Assembly: GCA_036480375.1 (NCBI GenBank)
Contig: JAZGGI010000048.1
Span: 1 to 64,000 of the forward strand
Direction: 5' to 3'
Source of the DNA: Candidatus Zixiibacteriota bacterium
Lineage (GTDB): Bacteria; Zixibacteria; MSB-5A5; GN15; JAAZOE01
Length of the DNA stretch: 64,000 nt
This document shows positions 5,942 through 60,270 of this stretch, in pieces; position 1 is the stretch's first letter; the number at the start of each line of letters is the position of its first letter. The notes beneath the pieces were generated by a model that saw only the letters and a list, made by a program, of their open reading frames with translations, did no database searches and had not been told where the DNA came from. Both the position numbers and the translations under genes were made by a program.

Positions 5942-5976
5942 ATAAAAAAAAGACCGACCCAATCGGGTCGATCTTT
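5942..5976 (-). terminator. Terminator of the sigma/anti-sigma operon
   Basis: CGACCC (5955-5960), loop AATC, and GGGTCG (5965-5970) form a hairpin extended by an outer AAGA/TCTT stem, with A-runs on the left that become T-runs on the minus strand. It lies just past the anti-sigma stop at 6003. The dyad could also work in the other direction. Confidence 0.75.
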
Positions 5977-6002: not shown

Positions 6003-7283
6003 TTATTTGAGCAAGCTCATCTTTTTGGAAGTTGTAATTTCTCCGGCGGTCAATCGATAAAGGTAAATACCCGAAGCGACTTTTTCGCCGTTAGAATTGG
6101 TGGCATCCCAGGTTACCGAATGCTGACCGGCCGAGAAATATTTGTCAACCAGAGTTTTAACTCTCTGTCCGTTTATATTATAGACTTCCAATAGTACATC
6201 TTCCGCCTCGGGAATAGAGAATTGAATAGTCGTAGTAGGGTTGAATGGGTTGGGATAGTTTTGCTTGAGTTCAAAACCATCAGGTAAGGCGGCATCAATT
6301 GGCTTATGTGAAAAAATCATTTCGGCCTCATGATCAGAATGGGCATTGTCATCCTTGGTGTTAAATTCAATGTGGGGGTCGCCGGTAGCTTTTAGTTTTT
6401 CCCAGAATTCGGGATCGTTCTGATCCAGTTCGTAAAGAACACCCTCGGCGGTAGAGCCTTTCCAGATGATTCTATTATCGTCTTCAGGAGTATCGATATC
6501 ACCACCCTCTGAAATAAAGATGGTAAAAGACCCTTCGTGGAGTCCTTTAAGCATTTCTATTTTTTGAACGGCCTCTTCATGAATACCATCTTCATCCATA
6601 CGTTGCAAATGCATTTCGGAAAAAAATATATGTTTAGCATGTTTCAGAAGAGATACCATTTCGCCATCAGAAATTTCTTTAACTTCCTTTATTACACAAT
6701 TACCGAGCTCATCAAATGTTTCGATAATAAGTTGCATTTCATATTCTGATTTCAGGTCAGTGATCGTCAATTCACAGGTCGCCTCGCAATCGCCAACCTT
6801 GTAATCGACATCACCCAATCCAAGAGCGACAAACAATTCAGTTATTTTATCTTCATCCATAGCCAGATTTTTATCGACTCCGGCGACGGCGACTTCATAC
6901 CCTATAGTTCGGTCGAATTTAAATGGTATCAGGGTTGTGAATAGGAGAAGGATAATGACAGTTCCTAATGAAATACTCAAACGGGGGCGAGCCCGCAATT
7001 GTCTTTTAATAGCGCTCATAATTTTAAACTCCTCAGGTTTTTCGGACTGGCTCATTCCCGCGATTGATTCTATTCTTTTCCGCAGGTTGGCAACAGATAC
7101 TCCGTCATTATCATCGATGGCCGCGACGGTATCCAAATCTCGACTGATTGTTCGCTCGGCCTGAGCGAACAGGGCGCACTCGGGACAGGATTGGATATGC
7201 CGCTTGATATCTTCATCCATTGATCCGGATGAGAGTTTTTGGCTCAGGTCGGCTATTCGTTTACGGGCTTCGTGACAACGCAT
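6003..7283 (-). CDS. Zinc-finger anti-sigma factor with C-terminal FlgD-like/type IX-style domain
   Basis: 426 residues. The N-terminus carries the zinc-binding anti-sigma signature H29-x3-C33-x2-C36 (HIQSCPEC). One membrane helix follows at about residues 101-121 (LGTVIILLLFTTLIPF), then a periplasmic region of about 220 residues. The last 85 residues are a FlgD-like Ig/type IX sorting domain (YPNPFNPTTTIQF, GQRVKTL, GEKVASGIYLYRL, KKMSLLK). By family knowledge the N-terminal domain holds the ECF sigma factor at the membrane until a signal frees it. The gene overlaps the upstream sigma gene by 31 bases. The combination of a membrane-anchored anti-sigma factor with a sorting-type C-terminus is unusual. 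Confidence 0.88.
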   Translation of the reverse strand: MRCHEARKRIADLSQKLSSGSMDEDIKRHIQSCPECALFAQAERTISRDLDTVAAIDDNDGVSVANLRKRIESIAGMSQSEKPEEFKIMSAIKRQLRARPRLSISLGTVIILLLFTTLIPFKFDRTIGYEVAVAGVDKNLAMDEDKITELFVALGLGDVDYKVGDCEATCELTITDLKSEYEMQLIIETFDELGNCVIKEVKEISDGEMVSLLKHAKHIFFSEMHLQRMDEDGIHEEAVQKIEMLKGLHEGSFTIFISEGGDIDTPEDDNRIIWKGSTAEGVLYELDQNDPEFWEKLKATGDPHIEFNTKDDNAHSDHEAEMIFSHKPIDAALPDGFELKQNYPNPFNPTTTIQFSIPEAEDVLLEVYNINGQRVKTLVDKYFSAGQHSVTWDATNSNGEKVASGIYLYRLTAGEITTSKKMSLLK

Positions 7284-7837
7284 ACCTTGTCCTCTTGAAA
7301 TTTAATGTTTTCGTTTCTCGATGAACCGGTCATTTTCAAATGCTTCATTAACGCCTGGCGCATTTTCCGGCGGCAGCGCGATAAACGCATTTTGACGGCG
7401 GATTGCGAAAGGCCTTTCATTTCAGCCAGTTCGGCGATGGTCCAGCCTTGCATTTCAAAGAGCGTAATCAGCGCTCGGTCAACCGGCTCGACGGCGCGAA
7501 ACGCAATTTCAAGTCTGCGTCGGGCGGTATAAAGCGAGGTCGGGTCCTCTCCGGATACCGATTCAAGAAAATCCGGTGTCGAAGGAAGAACTTTCTTCCA
7601 CCAGGGACTCTTGACGCGGTTCCGAAAAGAATTGACTATTATTCGATATAGCCAGGGTCGAAATGAATCGGTCGACTCCAGCCGCTCGAATTGTGTCAAC
7701 GCCTTGACCAGAGAATCCTGATACAAATCGTCGCCGTCATCCCGGTTGTTAGTCAGCTTGCGACAAAACGCTCGCGCCTTGACATGTTCCGGTTCAACTA
7801 ATTTCCAGAATAGGTCCCTATGTCGGTTCATCTGCAC
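7253..7837 (-). CDS. ECF-type RNA polymerase sigma factor
   Basis: 194 residues with region 2 (RDDGDDLYQDSLVKALTQFERLE...FRPWLYRIIVNSFRNR) and region 4 (FEMQGWTIAELAEMKGLSQSAVKMRLSRCRRKMRQAL), and no region 1 or 3, as in extracytoplasmic-function sigma factors. The frame opens with GTG at 7837; an in-frame ATG at 7831 is equally possible, with only a weak AGGTG nearby. It overlaps the anti-sigma gene by 31 bases, so the pair is probably co-translated. Downstream targets cannot be told from the sequence. The tail after residue 165 is longer than usual. Confidence 0.9.
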   Translation of the reverse strand: MQMNRHRDLFWKLVEPEHVKARAFCRKLTNNRDDGDDLYQDSLVKALTQFERLESTDSFRPWLYRIIVNSFRNRVKSPWWKKVLPSTPDFLESVSGEDPTSLYTARRRLEIAFRAVEPVDRALITLFEMQGWTIAELAEMKGLSQSAVKMRLSRCRRKMRQALMKHLKMTGSSRNENIKFQEDKVCVVTKPVNE

Positions 7838-7915
7838 CTAAGACAGTTTAATCTTATGAAAAGTAACCGATAATTAAATCTTTTTACGCACTAAACACTA
7901 TAATTGTTCTCCAAA

Positions 7916-7975: not shown

Positions 7976-9697
7976 TTACCGATCCTTCGTGTAAACGAAA
8001 TTATCTCCAGGAAATTCAGGATAAAATATTTCGCCCCAGTATCCGGATTGCGAAATTTCACCGGCTTTTTGTCGGCAGATTGAATATCGTTTGTCAATAT
8101 CATAAAGGACTACCGATTTTGGTTTTAGTTTATCAAGGACGTACTGAATTTCATCGTTGGGTTCATCCGGGCCGGGGACAACAATAAATGCCAGATCAAT
8201 TGATTCCTGATTTTGGGCCAGACTATCGATTTCAATCTTGAAGTTATCGAAATTTTCGGGACGGAATCCGGCAAAATAAATTGTCAAATCGTCAACCGTT
8301 ATCATATATCCGAGAGAAGTCATGCTTTCTGTCACCGGAATGGTTTTGATTCTCAATTCACCCAATTCGAAATTAGTTCCCGGTTCGAGATAGAACGAAT
8401 TTTTGCAACCACGCCAGCGGTCGCCGGAATTATGGATATAGGTAATATTATCAAGAGTGTCTTCCAGTTGATGAATGTAGGCAGGCTCGCCGGGAAGACC
8501 ATGATAGCAGGAATACAGAGCATAGATATTTTCATTTTCAATTTCTTCCGGAGTCAAAAAACCGTTTGCCAGTGAAGGTTCAGTCGGTCGAATTGCGGAA
8601 AATTCCTCAGCATCAAAAATAAGCATGGCATTTTTGGTTTTCACGGCCCAGCCGCGGTTGTTCAATTGCCAGGTTATAAGTTGACCTTCGGGTAATTCAG
8701 ATTCCAAATAAGGAGACCTCTCGGAATTATCTGAAAAATCACCGGGTGTTCCGGATCCCCGCTCAATTAGAAGGTGAGAGATTTGTCCATGTCCGTATTT
8801 GCCCGCAAAATATCGGGGAGAATGATTCTCATTGTCTAATTCGTCAATATTGTCAATAAGAGGGAGGATTTTCGTGACAAGGTCCTTTATTCCCGCGATG
8901 CAGGCCAGATGAAGAAGATTACGGCCGGTTGAAGTGTCAATAAAATCAGTTTTGGCGCCGCTTTGAATCAGTAAATTGACAATATCCAATTTCCCCCGTT
9001 CAACCGCCCATTTTATAGCGGGGATACTGTTTGGACCAAGAGCGTTGATATCGGCTCCGTTTTCAAGCAAAAATTTCACAATATTTGTTTTCCCTCGTTG
9101 GGCGGCATCAGCCAGTGGCATCAAACCGTCGGGTCGATGACTGCGATTGACATCCAATCCGTGTTCTAATAATAATTGAACACCTTCAGAGGAACCAAAC
9201 GAAATGGCGCTCATCAAATCGGTAAATCCATTTGGAGCCCTGTAATGAGGATCAAAATCTTGATCTAAAGAGATAATATACCGGGCAATTTCCAAATTGC
9301 CGCTCCGGACGCCAATAGAAAAGGCAAGATGGCGAGGTGACATACCGGCGCCGGAATTAGAGTTGCTGATTGAAGCGCCTTTTTCTATCAGATATTTAAC
9401 CGTCTCAAAATTTCTACTGAAAATGGCATAGATAAGCGGAGTCATTCCCCGGCCGTTAACGGCTTCGATAGCCGCACCTTTTTCTACGAGTAATCGCACC
9501 AGGTCCGGATTTCCGTAATAACAGGCTATGTGTAATGGCGTATTCGATCTTTCATTAGTCGCTTGCAGGACGTTTTTATCCTGAGCAATAATTTGCTCAA
9601 TGGTATTGATGTCGCCGGATTTGATGGCTTCAAATATATCCGCGGAATAAACGGTTGAGGCGAACAATATCATTATGATTAAAATTTTCTTCATCAT
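7976..9697 (-). CDS. Secreted ankyrin-repeat protein with degenerate metallo-beta-lactamase-fold domain
   Basis: 573 residues with an N-terminal signal peptide (MMKKILIIMILFASTVYSA). Residues about 20-330 are eight or nine ankyrin repeats (NTPLHIACYYGNPDLVRLLV, TPLIYAIFSRNFETVKYLI and so on). The last 230 residues resemble MBL-fold hydrolases: GWAVKTKNAMLIFD, RPTEPSLANGFLTPEEI and a late LTIYFAG strand. Where the family has HxHxDH this protein has CYHGLPGE, and the later metal aspartate position reads GFRPEN, so metal catalysis is probably lost. SD AGGAGG lies seven bases upstream. It is the third gene after a BlaI-type repressor and an M56 peptidase, 54 bases downstream and without an intervening terminator, so it is the likely regulated output. 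Confidence 0.8.
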   Translation of the reverse strand: MMKKILIIMILFASTVYSADIFEAIKSGDINTIEQIIAQDKNVLQATNERSNTPLHIACYYGNPDLVRLLVEKGAAIEAVNGRGMTPLIYAIFSRNFETVKYLIEKGASISNSNSGAGMSPRHLAFSIGVRSGNLEIARYIISLDQDFDPHYRAPNGFTDLMSAISFGSSEGVQLLLEHGLDVNRSHRPDGLMPLADAAQRGKTNIVKFLLENGADINALGPNSIPAIKWAVERGKLDIVNLLIQSGAKTDFIDTSTGRNLLHLACIAGIKDLVTKILPLIDNIDELDNENHSPRYFAGKYGHGQISHLLIERGSGTPGDFSDNSERSPYLESELPEGQLITWQLNNRGWAVKTKNAMLIFDAEEFSAIRPTEPSLANGFLTPEEIENENIYALYSCYHGLPGEPAYIHQLEDTLDNITYIHNSGDRWRGCKNSFYLEPGTNFELGELRIKTIPVTESMTSLGYMITVDDLTIYFAGFRPENFDNFKIEIDSLAQNQESIDLAFIVVPGPDEPNDEIQYVLDKLKPKSVVLYDIDKRYSICRQKAGEISQSGYWGEIFYPEFPGDNFVYTKDR

Positions 9698-9751: not shown

Positions 9752-11542
9752 TTATGTTTCGTTAATTATTTTTGACTTGTCATATTCGCCGGAGGGTGGT
9801 TCGGGAATTTTCTGATTTGATTTATTGCCTGATTGCCCGCCCGAATCGGGCCCCACGGCCGGAAGCAAGTCGGGATCATTTCGGGCCAATTCGCGGGCCA
9901 GGGCCGCTTGAATGCCCCGGGTCATAATTAACACATTACCGTGTACGAATTTGAAATGCTTAAACAGCATCGGTCCGTGCGGCGTAACATCTCCCCAATC
10001 ATCAATAGTCGTTAAAAAGATGGGCCCATAAGGACTATTCACATCCATGCATTTAATCTGAAGAGGTCCTTCAATTGAGCTGACCAGTAACGTGTCATTT
10101 TGCCTGGCGAATTTTATTGTAATATCAGACGGGCGCACCAAAGTATCAACGCGGCTATCCGATCCCATGGATGCAGCGGTAATGGCCCCATGTAATCGCA
10201 AATAATATATATCCCCCTCTTTTCCATAATCGGCAACTATGAATTGAGGATCAAGGCTCCTATAAATCCCGGTTGTGAGGGCACGGATGGTGTTATCGAA
10301 ATATGCTCGGCTTTCGCCTTTCGGCAGGTTTTCCATTGTCAGCCAGGGATCATCGAAGAAGTCGGGCGTTAAAAACGAACTTTTAACCGATTCGAAATCG
10401 TATTCATAGTTTACAAAATCATAAAAAAGATTAATCGTCGATAGCATTTCGATATATTCATCCCTGCTTATTTTTTCGGACTGAGAGGGGTCAGCGAAAG
10501 TCGTAATAGCGCCTAAAACAACAAGAAAAACAAAGGCAATTGTAATTGCCAATCCAATTTTCAGGGCTTTCAGGCGCGGTCGCAAGCGAGATTTTTCCAT
10601 AATAGACCGCAATCGCTTTTCAAGGCGGGAATTGCAGGCCATGGCTACCATGGATACGATTGGGGTTCGATTGCGCCTTAATTGATAGGCGACTTCAATT
10701 AATGAACGAGCATAGGTATCTGCTGAAATTCCCGCTTCAAGAACGGAATCATCGGCGGCCTGCTCCCGGTCAATATACAACCGGCGACGCACCAACCAGA
10801 ATAAAGGGTTGACCCAATATAGCACGAGCGCCGCCTGGGATAATAAGGTCGAAAGCACATCAAGTCTTTTCAGGTGAATTAATTCGTGGGTCAAGATTAT
10901 CCGTTGCTTTTCTTTTGACCAGTTAAAAAATTGCGTGGGAAGATAAACGGCGGGCCGCAATAGTCCCGATGCAAAGGGTACCGGGATTTTCGCGCCCATA
11001 TACAATTGGATTCGGGATTTTATCTCAAGCTCATTTCGGCATTGATTAAATAAGGATTGAATGTGATTATCCATGACCAATGTGGCCTGATTTTTGAAAT
11101 ATCGCGCGCAACAAAAGCCGAAAAGAATTTTTATGATTATGGCGATTGTCCCGATAAACCATGCCAGGCCGATATAGTATTTCCAATCGAATTTTGAAAC
11201 TTCTGTCGGCGAAGATGGCCCCGCGGCTGTATTTTGAATGTCCGTCGCAGAAACGGTATGAGCCGCGAATTCGGGAAGCGGCAAATTGATTCGCGTTAAC
11301 GGGATACTATCGGGGAGAGTAATCAAATTTTGCAGGGGAGCCAGAAAATATATTATCGGCAACAGCAGAACGGTAATAACAGCCAAACTCAGAATAAAAT
11401 GACGCAGAGAGGCTGAAGTCCGGGAGCGAAACAACCCGATGAGAAGCGCAATCAGTAAAACCAATCCCGTTTTGAGAAAAATATCCAGAGCGTCCTTGAA
11501 CTCAACCATTTCAAATACCGAATTTAGACTCGCGCTAATCAT
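9752..11542 (-). CDS. BlaR1-like M56 family membrane metallopeptidase
   Basis: 596 residues. Two N-terminal helices (about 25-38 and 50-68), a third near 122-145 and one near 330-350 frame the zinc peptidase domain with H219-E220-x2-H223 (THELIHLKRLD) and a downstream acidic ligand in DREQAADD (E261). In BlaR1/MecR1 this domain starts the signal that ends in cleavage of the BlaI/MecI repressor. The sensor domain differs: instead of a penicillin-binding domain, the roughly 240 residues after the last helix form a soluble domain I do not recognise, ending in a low-complexity tail (GPDSGGQSGNKSNQK). The signal is therefore probably not a beta-lactam. The start overlaps the upstream blaI-type gene by four bases. 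Confidence 0.88.
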   Translation of the reverse strand: MISASLNSVFEMVEFKDALDIFLKTGLVLLIALLIGLFRSRTSASLRHFILSLAVITVLLLPIIYFLAPLQNLITLPDSIPLTRINLPLPEFAAHTVSATDIQNTAAGPSSPTEVSKFDWKYYIGLAWFIGTIAIIIKILFGFCCARYFKNQATLVMDNHIQSLFNQCRNELEIKSRIQLYMGAKIPVPFASGLLRPAVYLPTQFFNWSKEKQRIILTHELIHLKRLDVLSTLLSQAALVLYWVNPLFWLVRRRLYIDREQAADDSVLEAGISADTYARSLIEVAYQLRRNRTPIVSMVAMACNSRLEKRLRSIMEKSRLRPRLKALKIGLAITIAFVFLVVLGAITTFADPSQSEKISRDEYIEMLSTINLFYDFVNYEYDFESVKSSFLTPDFFDDPWLTMENLPKGESRAYFDNTIRALTTGIYRSLDPQFIVADYGKEGDIYYLRLHGAITAASMGSDSRVDTLVRPSDITIKFARQNDTLLVSSIEGPLQIKCMDVNSPYGPIFLTTIDDWGDVTPHGPMLFKHFKFVHGNVLIMTRGIQAALARELARNDPDLLPAVGPDSGGQSGNKSNQKIPEPPSGEYDKSKIINET

Positions 11543-11928
11543 TTTTCCTCAGTCCGTGCCTTTTCTATAAGATGTAATAAACGATTGTAATCATCCTCAG
11601 CCATTTTATTACCCCGCATATTAATCAACGCGGATATGACATTTTCAGCTGAATTATTAAAAAAGGTAGTCATCAAATCTTTGAGAGCCAAAGTCCGAGC
11701 TTTTTCTTTAGGTATTTTCGGAAAATAGATATACCGCGGACCCTGCTGCTCATGATAAATAACATTTTTCTCCTCAAGGATACGGAGTTGAGCCCGAACC
11801 GACGAATAGCTGGGAGGGTCGGGTAATGATTTATGAATTTGCCCGGCGGTGGCCGATCCCTGACGAAACATGATCTCCATGATTTGTCTTTCACGACGGC
11901 TTAGATTTTTCAGTTTTTTTTCTTTCAT
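11539..11928 (-). CDS. BlaI/MecI-type transcriptional repressor
   Basis: About 129 residues with the winged-helix core of the BlaI/MecI family (LSRRERQIMEIMFRQGSATAGQIHKSL, then SYSSVRAQLRILEEKNVIYH) and a helical dimerisation tail. I place the start at 11928 (MKEKKLKNLS), where GGGAG lies six bases upstream; a longer frame from 11949 has no such site. Family members bind palindromes in their own promoter and are inactivated by proteolysis through a linked M56 protein, which is the next gene here with a four-base overlap. Confidence 0.9.
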   Translation of the reverse strand: MKEKKLKNLSRRERQIMEIMFRQGSATAGQIHKSLPDPPSYSSVRAQLRILEEKNVIYHEQQGPRYIYFPKIPKEKARTLALKDLMTTFFNNSAENVISALINMRGNKMAEDDYNRLLHLIEKARTEEK

Positions 11929-11992
11929 TTCAACTCCCGGTTGACTCATTATACGCTGGTTTGACGAAAAAGATGCTAATATTTTACCATAC

Positions 11993-57141: not shown

Positions 57142-60090
57142 TCACTTCAAAAGTACCATCTTGCGCGTCAGGCTGGTGTTATCATGCGATACTCGGTACA
57201 GATAAATTCCGCTGGCAACAGCTTGACCGCTCCCGTCCATACCATCCCAGACAACCTCATGACGACCGGCGGGATATTTCTTATTATCCAGAGTTTTTAC
57301 AACTCGTCCCAAAATATCAAACACCTCGATTTTTACATTGCCTGATTTGGGCAGAGAAAATGAAATCGTAGTCGCCGGATTAAACGGATTGGGGAAATTC
57401 TGATATAGCGCGAACGTCCCTGGCAATATCGGATTATCGTCATCGACGTCGGTCGGCAGCAAATCATACACAACTTGCGCTCGCTGAGCGTTGGCAATAA
57501 AATCATCCCAGGCATCGCCGCCGACAATAGCGAAGGCGGCCGTATCCGATTGTCCCGGACTCAGAGAAAACGGGCCGGTCGAAGTTATATGCGCTGCGTC
57601 AACTACTCCGTTATAAAATGGCCGAAAATCGGTCGCCAGTCCGCGAAATTTCAATCCTTCATGGAAAAAGCTGCCGTAGGTTTCGACCGGACTTATCAAA
57701 ATTTCATGATTGAACATCCCCTCCGGATTAAGAATCCTCACGCCCCGGAAGTCGGATGAATCGGAAGCTGAGGCCCAGCAAACATATCCCATATCTTCGC
57801 TATCGACCGGACGGCCGTGATTCTGGCTGAAGACGTTGATATCCCAGTCGAAATAAAGTCCGGCATACAATCCGGTTATATCAGTGATGTTGTTGTTGGT
57901 GATGATATATTCGAGGATAATAAACTTATCATCCGGAGCCGAATTCCAGGCGTAGCTTTTCTGAACGATGGAAATCCCCAGAGGATTTTCGGCATAACTA
58001 TCATCAAATGACGAAACCGTTTCCTGATCGGCATAAATACCCGATGTCGTCGATTGAATCGTCCCACCCCCGGTTACAAAGAAATCGCTGTCGAGTTCCT
58101 GGGCGACATTGTGAGCGCCATCCGAGACGTGGGCCGAATCGGTTCCGATTAAAAAGGCACCCTCATACATATCATTGATGGCACTGCCGAATTGAAAACC
58201 GGAATATCCCAGTGGAGTATATGAATTGTCATTGAACCCAAACACGCCATAATTGGAGATAGTAAAGGCGATGGTTTCATTTTGATGATCATAATATGAC
58301 CGTTCGCCGCGCGAACAGACATAGAATTTCAGCGTTTGCACTTTGCTGTACCCACCGTCGGCGGTAATAAGCATATCAACAATATAGTAGCGATTGATTT
58401 CAATCGAATTATCAAAAGAAATCATGAGGAGCGATCCTCCTGTAGCGGAACCATTACGGCCGATTGCCCCGAAACTTATCTGGCTGGTTATAAGATTTAC
58501 ACCCGACTCGGGATTTGAAAAATCAGCGGTGACATTGAAAGCATCGGCGCCGATATTCTTGATCGTCATGGTCAAGTCAAGTTGATCACCGGGGTTAATA
58601 TGAGGGATATCAAATCCTTTGACCTGCAATGACGGAGTGGTCAACATCGTAAGTTCTTCGAGAGCTTTAACAATATCAATCAGGCCCCATCCGTAAGTAT
58701 TATCCGGTCCCGCCGTCCCCAGATCATGAGCCGAATTTAATAAAGCCGTCTTGATTTCATCAACTGTCGCGTCAGGATTTTTCTGGCGTAAAATAGCCAC
58801 CGCTCCCGATACATGCGGAGCCGCCGCCGAAGTTCCGCTGCGGATAGCGTAAACGTTATTCGGCTCGCATGAACGCACCGACTGTCCCGGAGCGACCACG
58901 TTCGGTTTGATGGAAACTCCATCACAGTTTGACGGTCCTCGTGACGAAGCGGACCAGATCGATGAATCGGGCGCGTAAACCGCGCCGATAGCGAAATTAG
59001 TAATCGAATCCTCAGCCCGATTGGCAGGGCTGCGAATAGCGTTGGCAGTAGTTCCTTCATTGCCCGCCGAAAAGACATTGACAATACCCAGACCGTCTTC
59101 GAGGTTGTCAATTACACCCCAGAATAATTCGCTGCATCCGATATCTTTTATGCCGTAGCTGTGATTGATGACGTCAGGAATATCGGTCACGGTATTGGGA
59201 TTACCGTCCGGGTCAGCCGCCCATTGAAAAGCGTCGAAAATCGAAGCTCCGGGAACGTCAATGGCCAGCGCGGCAATCCAGTCCGCGCCGGGCGCGACGC
59301 CGATTGTATCGCCGGTGGCGTCATCATGGCCGACCATAATTCCGGTTGTGTTCGTTCCATGCGCCCGCGATGATCCGGCTTCGGGAAAATCATGAGGATA
59401 GGTGGAAGTATCGATTCCGGGATACCAGCATTCCCGCGCCGAATAGCCTTTATTACCACGATAATTACTCGATAACGCCGGATGGTCTCCGTCAACCCCG
59501 CTGTCAAAACTGCATACAATCCGTCCGCTTCCATCATAACCCAAAGCCCAGGCCGAATCAGCGTTAATTGCAGAAAGATTGATCTCAACCCCGACCGATG
59601 TAGACAGAGATTCAATCCCGCTTTTCGGAGCCGGGACAGGTTCAATTTCAGGATAAGCCTCAATAGATTTAATAAATGAGTTATTTGCCAGAATTTTCAA
59701 TTTATCGGACCGAATCTCGGCCTCGATTAAATTATCAATCCAAAAATATTTTATATTTCTTGCCTGTCCGTTATTCACGAAGCTATTCAGGATGCTTTTA
59801 AGCGGCTGTTGGGACTTTTCGGCGTTTTCTTTCAATTGTTCTATGGCCGCCCGGCGGCGATCAGATAACTTCTTGAAATTTGCGTTCAAGGATGATTTAA
59901 ATGCGGCTTGATTATGCTCAGATTTCGGGACGATAACAACCCGAATCATTGCGTTTGTCTTATTCGTTTGAATTTTACTCTCAAGCCCGGAAGATATTTC
60001 TCCCGCCAATACCGCCGAAGCAAAAAGCGCGCAGGCAAAAGCAAAGGCCAGAAATCCGATTAGATGATATATTGCCGAACGTATAGTCAT
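57142..60090 (-). CDS. Secreted subtilisin-like (S8) serine protease with C-terminal sorting domain
   Basis: 982 residues. A signal peptide (FLAFAFACALFASAVLA) and a propeptide of about 120 residues precede the S8 domain. The catalytic residues are D196 (VCSFDSGVDGDHPAL), H244 (SRAHGTNTTG), N344 (FSAGNEG) and S421 (RSGTSAAAPHVSGA). A CARDB-like adhesive domain follows at about 480-590, then an uncharacterised beta-rich region and the final FlgD-like/type IX-style domain (NFPNPFNPATTISF, GRVVKTLDN, ASGIYLYRV, RKMVLLK). It is probably exported and then carried to the surface. The start at 60090 has GGAG five bases upstream; the longer frame from 60105 does not. Confidence 0.93.
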   Translation of the reverse strand: MTIRSAIYHLIGFLAFAFACALFASAVLAGEISSGLESKIQTNKTNAMIRVVIVPKSEHNQAAFKSSLNANFKKLSDRRRAAIEQLKENAEKSQQPLKSILNSFVNNGQARNIKYFWIDNLIEAEIRSDKLKILANNSFIKSIEAYPEIEPVPAPKSGIESLSTSVGVEINLSAINADSAWALGYDGSGRIVCSFDSGVDGDHPALSSNYRGNKGYSARECWYPGIDTSTYPHDFPEAGSSRAHGTNTTGIMVGHDDATGDTIGVAPGADWIAALAIDVPGASIFDAFQWAADPDGNPNTVTDIPDVINHSYGIKDIGCSELFWGVIDNLEDGLGIVNVFSAGNEGTTANAIRSPANRAEDSITNFAIGAVYAPDSSIWSASSRGPSNCDGVSIKPNVVAPGQSVRSCEPNNVYAIRSGTSAAAPHVSGAVAILRQKNPDATVDEIKTALLNSAHDLGTAGPDNTYGWGLIDIVKALEELTMLTTPSLQVKGFDIPHINPGDQLDLTMTIKNIGADAFNVTADFSNPESGVNLITSQISFGAIGRNGSATGGSLLMISFDNSIEINRYYIVDMLITADGGYSKVQTLKFYVCSRGERSYYDHQNETIAFTISNYGVFGFNDNSYTPLGYSGFQFGSAINDMYEGAFLIGTDSAHVSDGAHNVAQELDSDFFVTGGGTIQSTTSGIYADQETVSSFDDSYAENPLGISIVQKSYAWNSAPDDKFIILEYIITNNNITDITGLYAGLYFDWDINVFSQNHGRPVDSEDMGYVCWASASDSSDFRGVRILNPEGMFNHEILISPVETYGSFFHEGLKFRGLATDFRPFYNGVVDAAHITSTGPFSLSPGQSDTAAFAIVGGDAWDDFIANAQRAQVVYDLLPTDVDDDNPILPGTFALYQNFPNPFNPATTISFSLPKSGNVKIEVFDILGRVVKTLDNKKYPAGRHEVVWDGMDGSGQAVASGIYLYRVSHDNTSLTRKMVLLK

Positions 60091-60270
60091 GTTATCTCCA
60101 AACACAATATTACCTACCTCTCCAGAGCGAAGAATATGCCAGAAGACAAAAGAATTGAATATTTTTTACCTCAAGGCAAATAACAAGTTACTACCCGTAA
60201 AACAGTAAAAACTGCCTGAGTCTGCAAAATAATTACACATTTATGCCAGTTTTCTTCACGCCAAAACATG

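Follow-up and report, generated by a model that had tools for sequence, protein, structure and literature searches.

A predicted T9SS sorting domain at the C-terminus of a zinc-binding anti-sigma factor in Candidatus Zixiibacteriota

The sigma and anti-sigma gene pair

The window analysed here is the whole 64,000-nucleotide stretch at positions 1 to 64,000 of contig JAZGGI010000048.1 (assembly GCA_036480375.1), which belongs to a Candidatus Zixiibacteriota bacterium with a genome of 3.59 Mb in 50 contigs. On the minus strand of this window, an ECF sigma factor gene is followed by an overlapping open reading frame of 426 aa (6003-7283), whose coordinates had been given exactly by the initial annotation. 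The features of the locus are the following:

5949..5976, minus strand: terminator-like hairpin with a 12-pair stem, directly 3' of the anti-sigma stop codon
6003..7283, minus strand: predicted anti-sigma factor with a C-terminal T9SS sorting domain, 426 aa, its start overlapping the sigma gene by 31 bp
6006..6284, minus strand: predicted type A T9SS sorting domain (CTD), residues 334-426, ending SKKMSLLK
6285..6668, minus strand: variable linker, residues 206-333, mostly of low pLDDT
6672..6902, minus strand: predicted periplasmic middle domain, residues 128-204, ferredoxin-like (beta-alpha-beta-beta-alpha-beta) in the predicted structure
6924..6983, minus strand: predicted transmembrane helix, a hydrophobic stretch at residues ~101-120
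7146..7283, minus strand: predicted zinc-binding anti-sigma domain, residues 1-46, with C3, H29, C33 and C36
7253..7831, minus strand: ECF sigma factor gene with Sigma70_r2, Sigma70_r4_2 and TIGR02937 matches
7838..7867, minus strand: predicted autoregulatory ECF promoter GTTAC-N18-GTCTTAG, an exact motif match ending directly before the sigma gene

The sigma factor, taken over its full frame (7253-7837), is recognised in Pfam by Sigma70_r2 (48 bits, 1.1e-12) and Sigma70_r4_2 (33.8 bits), and by TIGR02937 with 70.3 bits against a cut-off of 42.9. The ATG at 7831 is preferred over the GTG at 7837 as its probable start because of the spacing between promoter and ATG in the orthologues. Besides the hairpin after the anti-sigma stop codon, a second, weaker one precedes the sigma promoter (the region holds five in total, against a mean of 2.4 in shuffles), and with hairpins flanking them on both sides the two genes have the appearance of an operon. 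A comparison of 21 neighbourhood regions, including an ABC transporter site without a fusion locus (L188), revealed no third gene family accompanying the pair: only the sigma and anti-sigma genes recur, in 20 of the 21, and no T9SS gene is conserved beside them.

Elsewhere in the window, positions 7976-9697 encode ankyrin repeats (Pfam) and, in the C-terminal half, a sequence that resembles a metallo-beta-lactamase-type domain but has no Pfam name. Positions 9752-11949 hold a BlaI/BlaR1-like pair (Penicillinase_R, Peptidase_M56), a second membrane-to-transcription system located two genes from the sigma operon.

Architecture of the anti-sigma factor and its sorting domain

The cysteine and histidine residues of the N-terminal domain, C3 and H29-x3-C33-x2-C36, are invariant in all 24 aligned homologues (alignment A1). 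The Pfam model zf-HC2 scores 13.4 bits for the window protein, below its cut-off of 22.2, and matches 10 of the 24 aligned members at E<=0.5, the best at 2.3e-4. A PDB search gave weak matches, the first and fourth of the five rows being RsiW (E 0.1) and RsrA (E 1.2). With zf-HC2 sub-threshold, it is the zinc site, the ECF gene next to it and the weak PDB matches that mark the protein as a predicted class I zinc-binding anti-sigma factor. The RsgI N-terminal domain and the FecR domain, sought under these names, gave no Pfam match at E<=0.1 in the window protein.

Summed over 22 orthologues, the 15 residues before the transmembrane helix contain 84 K or R and the 15 residues after it 24. This distribution predicts an N-in/C-out topology that would place the C-terminus in the periplasm. 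The helix does not qualify as an N-terminal Sec signal peptide, as it is preceded by about 100 residues comprising the zinc domain and a K/R-rich end. A signal-peptidase site at a conserved AxAG that follows the helix was dropped by judgement, since charged residues separate the helix from the motif, the stretch forms a beta strand in the model and some relatives have no AxAG (L038).

The middle domain is modelled with a pLDDT of 84-90 in the full-length protein. Modelled alone it is poor (pLDDT 58), and its matches are to generic ferredoxin-like folds, with E values no better than 0.003. Two of its cysteines, C166 and C170, are near-invariant (at least 90% of aligned rows), and the domain is also present in relatives without the CTD. 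Among the genomes sampled, it was seen within one phylum only. The linker that follows varies in length from 119 to 278 aa across the 22 orthologues.

The C-terminal segment is better conserved than the linker: mean pairwise identity among the 22 orthologues amounts to 58% in the CTD, compared to 43% in the middle domain, 39% in the helix, 37% in the zinc domain and 20% in the linker, which makes the CTD the best-conserved segment of the anti-sigma factor. Residues 343-422 of 426 match FlgD_ig (45.8 bits, cut-off 27), PF18962 Por_Secre_tail (38.9, cut-off 27) and TIGR04183 (43.5, cut-off 23). The last of these models is also passed by six of eight further members; the decayed L112 scores 19.0 (<23), and L109, which has no CTD, gives no match. 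In the predicted structure the CTD has a pLDDT of mostly 96-98, and its best PDB match is PorU, both by sequence (the C-terminal domain, E 2.7e-5) and by fold (E 6.6e-5). The fold matches that follow are PorZ, FlgD and the D chains of SprA complexes, which are 75-76 residues long and derive from complexes with RemZ or RemA-CTD. In VIA-align, PorU (Z 10.5), PorZ (9.1) and the mirolase CTD (8.7) score well, and so do many unrelated Ig-like domains, among which the RsgI4 sensor domain (7cg5) reaches Z 9.0. Because unrelated Ig-like domains attain a similar Z, the fold does not name the CTD family; the sequence profiles do.

The last residue is K, position -6 is K and the PNPF motif is present in all 22 intact fusions. 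In Porphyromonas gingivalis, the C-terminus and loop b3b4 of CTDs are described as needed for T9SS function (PMC11285876), and for Flavobacterium johnsoniae a single conserved Lys of type A CTDs is described as contacting PorV inside the translocon (PMC10994853). That this PorV-contacting Lys (RemZ Lys1110) might correspond to K(-6) of the anti-sigma CTD is a guess. Scored with a profile built from the cargo CTDs of the host genome, the 22 fusions obtain 110.8-136.2 bits, the window protein being the highest (136.2), and the cargo CTDs themselves, compared by leave-one-out, have a median of 119 with quartiles at 114 and 126 (n=43). The CTD of the window protein is thereby confirmed as a canonical type A sorting domain and predicted T9SS signal, and its pattern of conservation indicates that it is kept as such a signal rather than just as a fold. 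The zinc site, the helix, the ECF neighbour and the TIGR04183 score together bear out the initial annotation, which had read the protein as an inner-membrane zinc anti-sigma factor ending in a FlgD-like sorting domain.

The host genome contains 46 FlgD_ig matches, of which two lie in the window, namely the anti-sigma factor and an S8 protease (57142-60105). Among the other 44 proteins, 37 have a signal-peptide-like stretch within their first 60 residues and one is FlgD; the remainder comprises two 5'-open frames, one protein whose hydrophobic stretch lies at residue 82 and three frames, short or irregular, that lack any such stretch. A cytoplasmic N-terminal domain was seen in the anti-sigma factor and FlgD only. 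Apart from these few ambiguous frames, the domain is therefore not spread over many inner-membrane proteins of the host genome; it was such a spread that the initial annotation had named as refuting its reading.

The secretion machinery is encoded nearly throughout the phylum, with SprA (TIGR04189) in 129 and Peptidase_C25 (PorU class) in 131 of 132 genomes, so its co-occurrence with the fusion is non-discriminating and merely permits a T9SS-related reading. The host genome encodes SprA, a PorU-like C25 protein and nine PorV-family matches above cut-off; at the C25 place on contig C10 there is a CTD match with the same frame size of 1306 aa. The one motor model tried, TIGR03517, is silent and likewise so in the controls, which makes it uninformative. 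An M50 (site-2 type) protease scores above cut-off in the host genome, as it does in 14 of 14 control genomes.

A sorting signal at the end of an anti-sigma factor could also serve for clearance. The periplasmic half might be cut within the linker by normal anti-sigma proteolysis and then be exported by the T9SS as cargo, the CTD clearing or displaying the fragment and sensing nothing. This agrees with a CTD that is indistinguishable from cargo CTDs and keeps its terminal motif, and a long, variable linker of low model confidence is a plausible cleavage region. However, the released part would lack a recognisable effector domain (Pfam over residues 118-333 of the window protein gives nothing above cut-off), no cleavage site is evident in the linker alignment among the rows listed, and it is not obvious why a tag for disposal should be the best-conserved part of the protein. 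We regard such shedding as quite unlikely.

Distribution of the fusion and the promoter motif

The 132 genomes of the phylum were searched with residues 1-335, leaving out the CTD, and homologues were found in 61 of them. The open reading frames at the listed matches give 88 anti-sigma rows (including the duplicate L156 and a second frame in L118), of which 22 carry a CTD of at least 105 bits, three have a decayed CTD, one (L104) is cut within the CTD at a contig end and the others are CTD-less. The 22 loci with an intact fusion are thus distributed over 21 of the 132 genomes, G066 holding two. An ECF sigma gene adjoins all 22, with an overlap of exactly 31 bp in 19 cases, or in 20 if the second start codon of L024 is used. 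Because numerous genomes of the set are fragmented into many contigs, assembly could locally be wrong, and two genes might have been joined by such an error or by faulty gene prediction; yet the same open-frame fusion is present in 21 genomes, including the single-contig G023, G025 and G027, which renders an artefact extremely improbable.

In the sample outside the phylum, seven genomes match the anti-sigma profile, at most over profile positions 1 to 126, and none of the eight anti-sigma-like frames from this sample has a CTD; independent fusions may nonetheless occur elsewhere. A single contig search returned 13 loci, all of them aligned with the C-terminal end of the query alone (at most residues 287-426) and none with the anti-sigma part. 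The search proposed by the initial annotation, for the same fusion beside ECF genes in other FCB genomes, covered one phylum, where the fusion recurs, and a sample of other phyla, where it was not seen.

In the phylogenetic tree, from which nine of the 88 rows were omitted (the duplicate L156; L020, L113 and L129, cut at contig ends; and five below 140 bits), all CTD-bearing rows fall into one clade of 46 rows (support 100/99) that spans families f1, f2, f3, f4 and f9. This clade also contains CTD-less sub-clades of 13 and 7 rows, and the other 33 rows of the tree are all CTD-less. The change counts on the tree compare intact with decayed CTDs, and the placement of CTD-less rows was read from the drawn tree. 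The topology fits an old fusion followed by later losses of the CTD. Given the CTD-less relatives within the clade and the three decayed CTDs, the predicted signal is, judging from these sequences, dispensable in some lineages.

The decayed CTDs of L035, L112 and L114 are still recognisable (62.5, 69.0 and 38.1 bits) and represent natural examples of signal loss. Members of the 33-row clade (e.g. L109, L116, L133) are about 345 aa long and have a differing C-terminal region that often ends K/E-rich and beta-like. The host genome itself holds a CTD-less paralogue (G000:C10:413-1628, L156) without the zinc finger, in which the helix and the middle domain are retained.

These losses bear on whether the T9SS is involved at all. 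The CTD could have been taken from cargo as a stable Ig-like module that binds another envelope ligand. Ig-like folds do sense in other anti-sigma factors, for example in RsgI4 (7cg5), the CTD is decayed or absent in relatives, and neither the promoters nor the neighbourhood link the pair to the T9SS. Against such structural reuse, all 22 intact fusions retain K(-6) and the extreme C-terminal residues, beyond the needs of a mere fold, and in the three decayed copies some of these same residues have disappeared along with the profile score. We consider this explanation rather unlikely.

Upstream of the sigma gene, the motif G[TC][AT]AC-N15-20-GTC is present at 20 of 25 loci (22 intact and three decayed). 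A strict pattern, GTWAC-N17-18-GTCTWAG, gave 13 matches in eight genomes (G103 among them) against 53 for the reversed pattern, and a relaxed scan of the host genome gave six (C48, C10:413, C16, C21, C25 and C49) against 12 in the reversed control, so that only the position of the matches is informative and not their number. Eight of the 13 strict matches sit 0-7 nt before sigma genes of the family, CTD-bearing and CTD-less alike, including the sigma gene of the CTD-less paralogue on C10 of the host genome. Predicted autoregulation of the sigma operon is well supported by these positions, and cross-talk between the sigma paralogues is possible.

No T9SS component gene was found at a motif match in the host-genome, 21-genome and 8-genome scans, where exact patterns may miss weaker promoters or targets. 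This bears on a feedback circuit in which the sigma factor would raise T9SS component genes when capacity is spare or blocked. A precedent exists in P. gingivalis, where the CTD protein PorA is described as affecting PorXY-SigP control of T9SS genes (PMC7712824). Nevertheless, none of the SprA, C25 and PorV-family places in the host genome has the motif, and the stricter scans agree, which makes such feedback very improbable.

Two motif matches lie near other genes. A strict match at G014:C290:1471-1500 (L158, L188) has the ATG of a very short frame about 6 nt downstream and an ABC transporter ATPase gene about 275 bp downstream, which may be another target of the sigma factor. A relaxed match at G000:C16:48955-48982 (L164) precedes a putative small outer-membrane barrel gene by 38 bp and may be due to chance.

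A possible sensor of export and its relation to known systems

That an inner-membrane anti-sigma factor strictly keeps a T9SS signal is most simply accounted for if the signal still meets the T9SS, and because the anti-sigma factor is anchored, such a meeting can serve as a sensor. We therefore tentatively favour, at slightly less than an even chance, a reading in which an inner-membrane anti-sigma factor presents a T9SS signal on a flexible tether and senses export by docking. What the sequences show is which parts there are and how they follow one another, that the signal is conserved, that machinery genes are present and that the promoter motif stands at the operon. The zinc-finger domain would hold the sigma factor at the inner membrane, and the periplasmic part would consist of the ferredoxin-like domain, the flexible tether of 119-278 residues and the C-terminal type A signal. 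The signal would dock on the outer-membrane machinery (PorV/SprA) as cargo does, the protein itself remaining anchored in the inner membrane. The fate of the anti-sigma factor in regulated proteolysis would then depend on the state of export: whether capacity is free, the machine is jammed, the tail is being pulled or a PorU-like sortase cuts it. The middle domain could become unfolded or exposed through docking, pulling or sortase cleavage, and this could set off intramembrane proteolysis. We infer the topology, the docking, the proteolysis, the direction of the response and its targets.

In a narrower form of this proposal, which we rate as possible but somewhat unlikely, the protein is a tethered pseudo-cargo: pulling by the motor or cleavage by the PorU-like sortase would trigger release of the sigma factor, and the cell would read its secretion state through a substrate that cannot be fully exported. 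Docking-based sensing is opposed by the lack of motif matches at T9SS genes and of conserved T9SS genes nearby and by the loss of the CTD in some lineages, and the inner-membrane tether should hinder export. The suggestion of the initial annotation that the sigma system monitors type IX-like secretion is partly supported: it has the conserved signal and the encoded machinery in its favour, but no T9SS gene lies at the motif matches or is conserved beside the pair.

How T9SS bacteria sense load or failure of the machine is an open question on which the fusion may bear; in P. gingivalis, the activator of PorY is described as still to be determined (PMC7712824). If the proposed reading is correct, export at the outer membrane would be linked directly to transcription in bacteria outside Bacteroidota, and the fusion would offer a simple reporter of T9SS function. 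Class I anti-sigma factors with modular sensors are already known (PMC7406223). In the literature covered, from which most subscription journals and bioRxiv are absent, no anti-sigma factor carrying a T9SS domain was seen.

The protein resembles class I zinc anti-sigma factors such as RsiW in its Hx3Cx2C site, single transmembrane helix, gene position after an ECF sigma factor and autoregulated promoter motif, but differs from the RsiW type in that its periplasmic end is a T9SS sorting domain preceded by a ferredoxin-like middle domain, which is restricted to the phylum among the genomes sampled. It equals type A cargo (TIGR04183/PF18962) in the sequence, fold, terminal residues and scores of its CTD, whereas it has no N-terminal signal peptide and places about 100 predicted cytoplasmic residues before the helix. 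In FecR-type TonB-dependent control, an outer-membrane machine signals to an inner-membrane anti-sigma factor, and the receptor carries the signalling domain. The machine-to-anti-sigma logic is alike, but here the anti-sigma factor would carry the ligand of the machine, and no FecR domain was found.

RsgI has an anti-sigma domain that differs from the zinc-binding class I type. As described for Clostridium thermocellum, RsgI likewise sits in the inner membrane and has a modular sensor outside the cytoplasm, and it is subject to proteolysis by RseP and then ClpXP (PMC12203970). Its sensors, however, bind substrates outside the Gram-positive cell and have no secretion signal. PorA-PorXY-SigP of P. 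gingivalis also ties a CTD protein to an ECF sigma factor; in that account PorA is a separate protein, secreted to the surface, and SigP is driven by the two-component system, whereas here the CTD lies within the anti-sigma factor (PMC7712824). Anti-sigma factors with modular sensors and a CTD protein feeding a sigma pathway are thus known, while the new element would be that the anti-sigma factor itself contains the predicted T9SS sorting signal.
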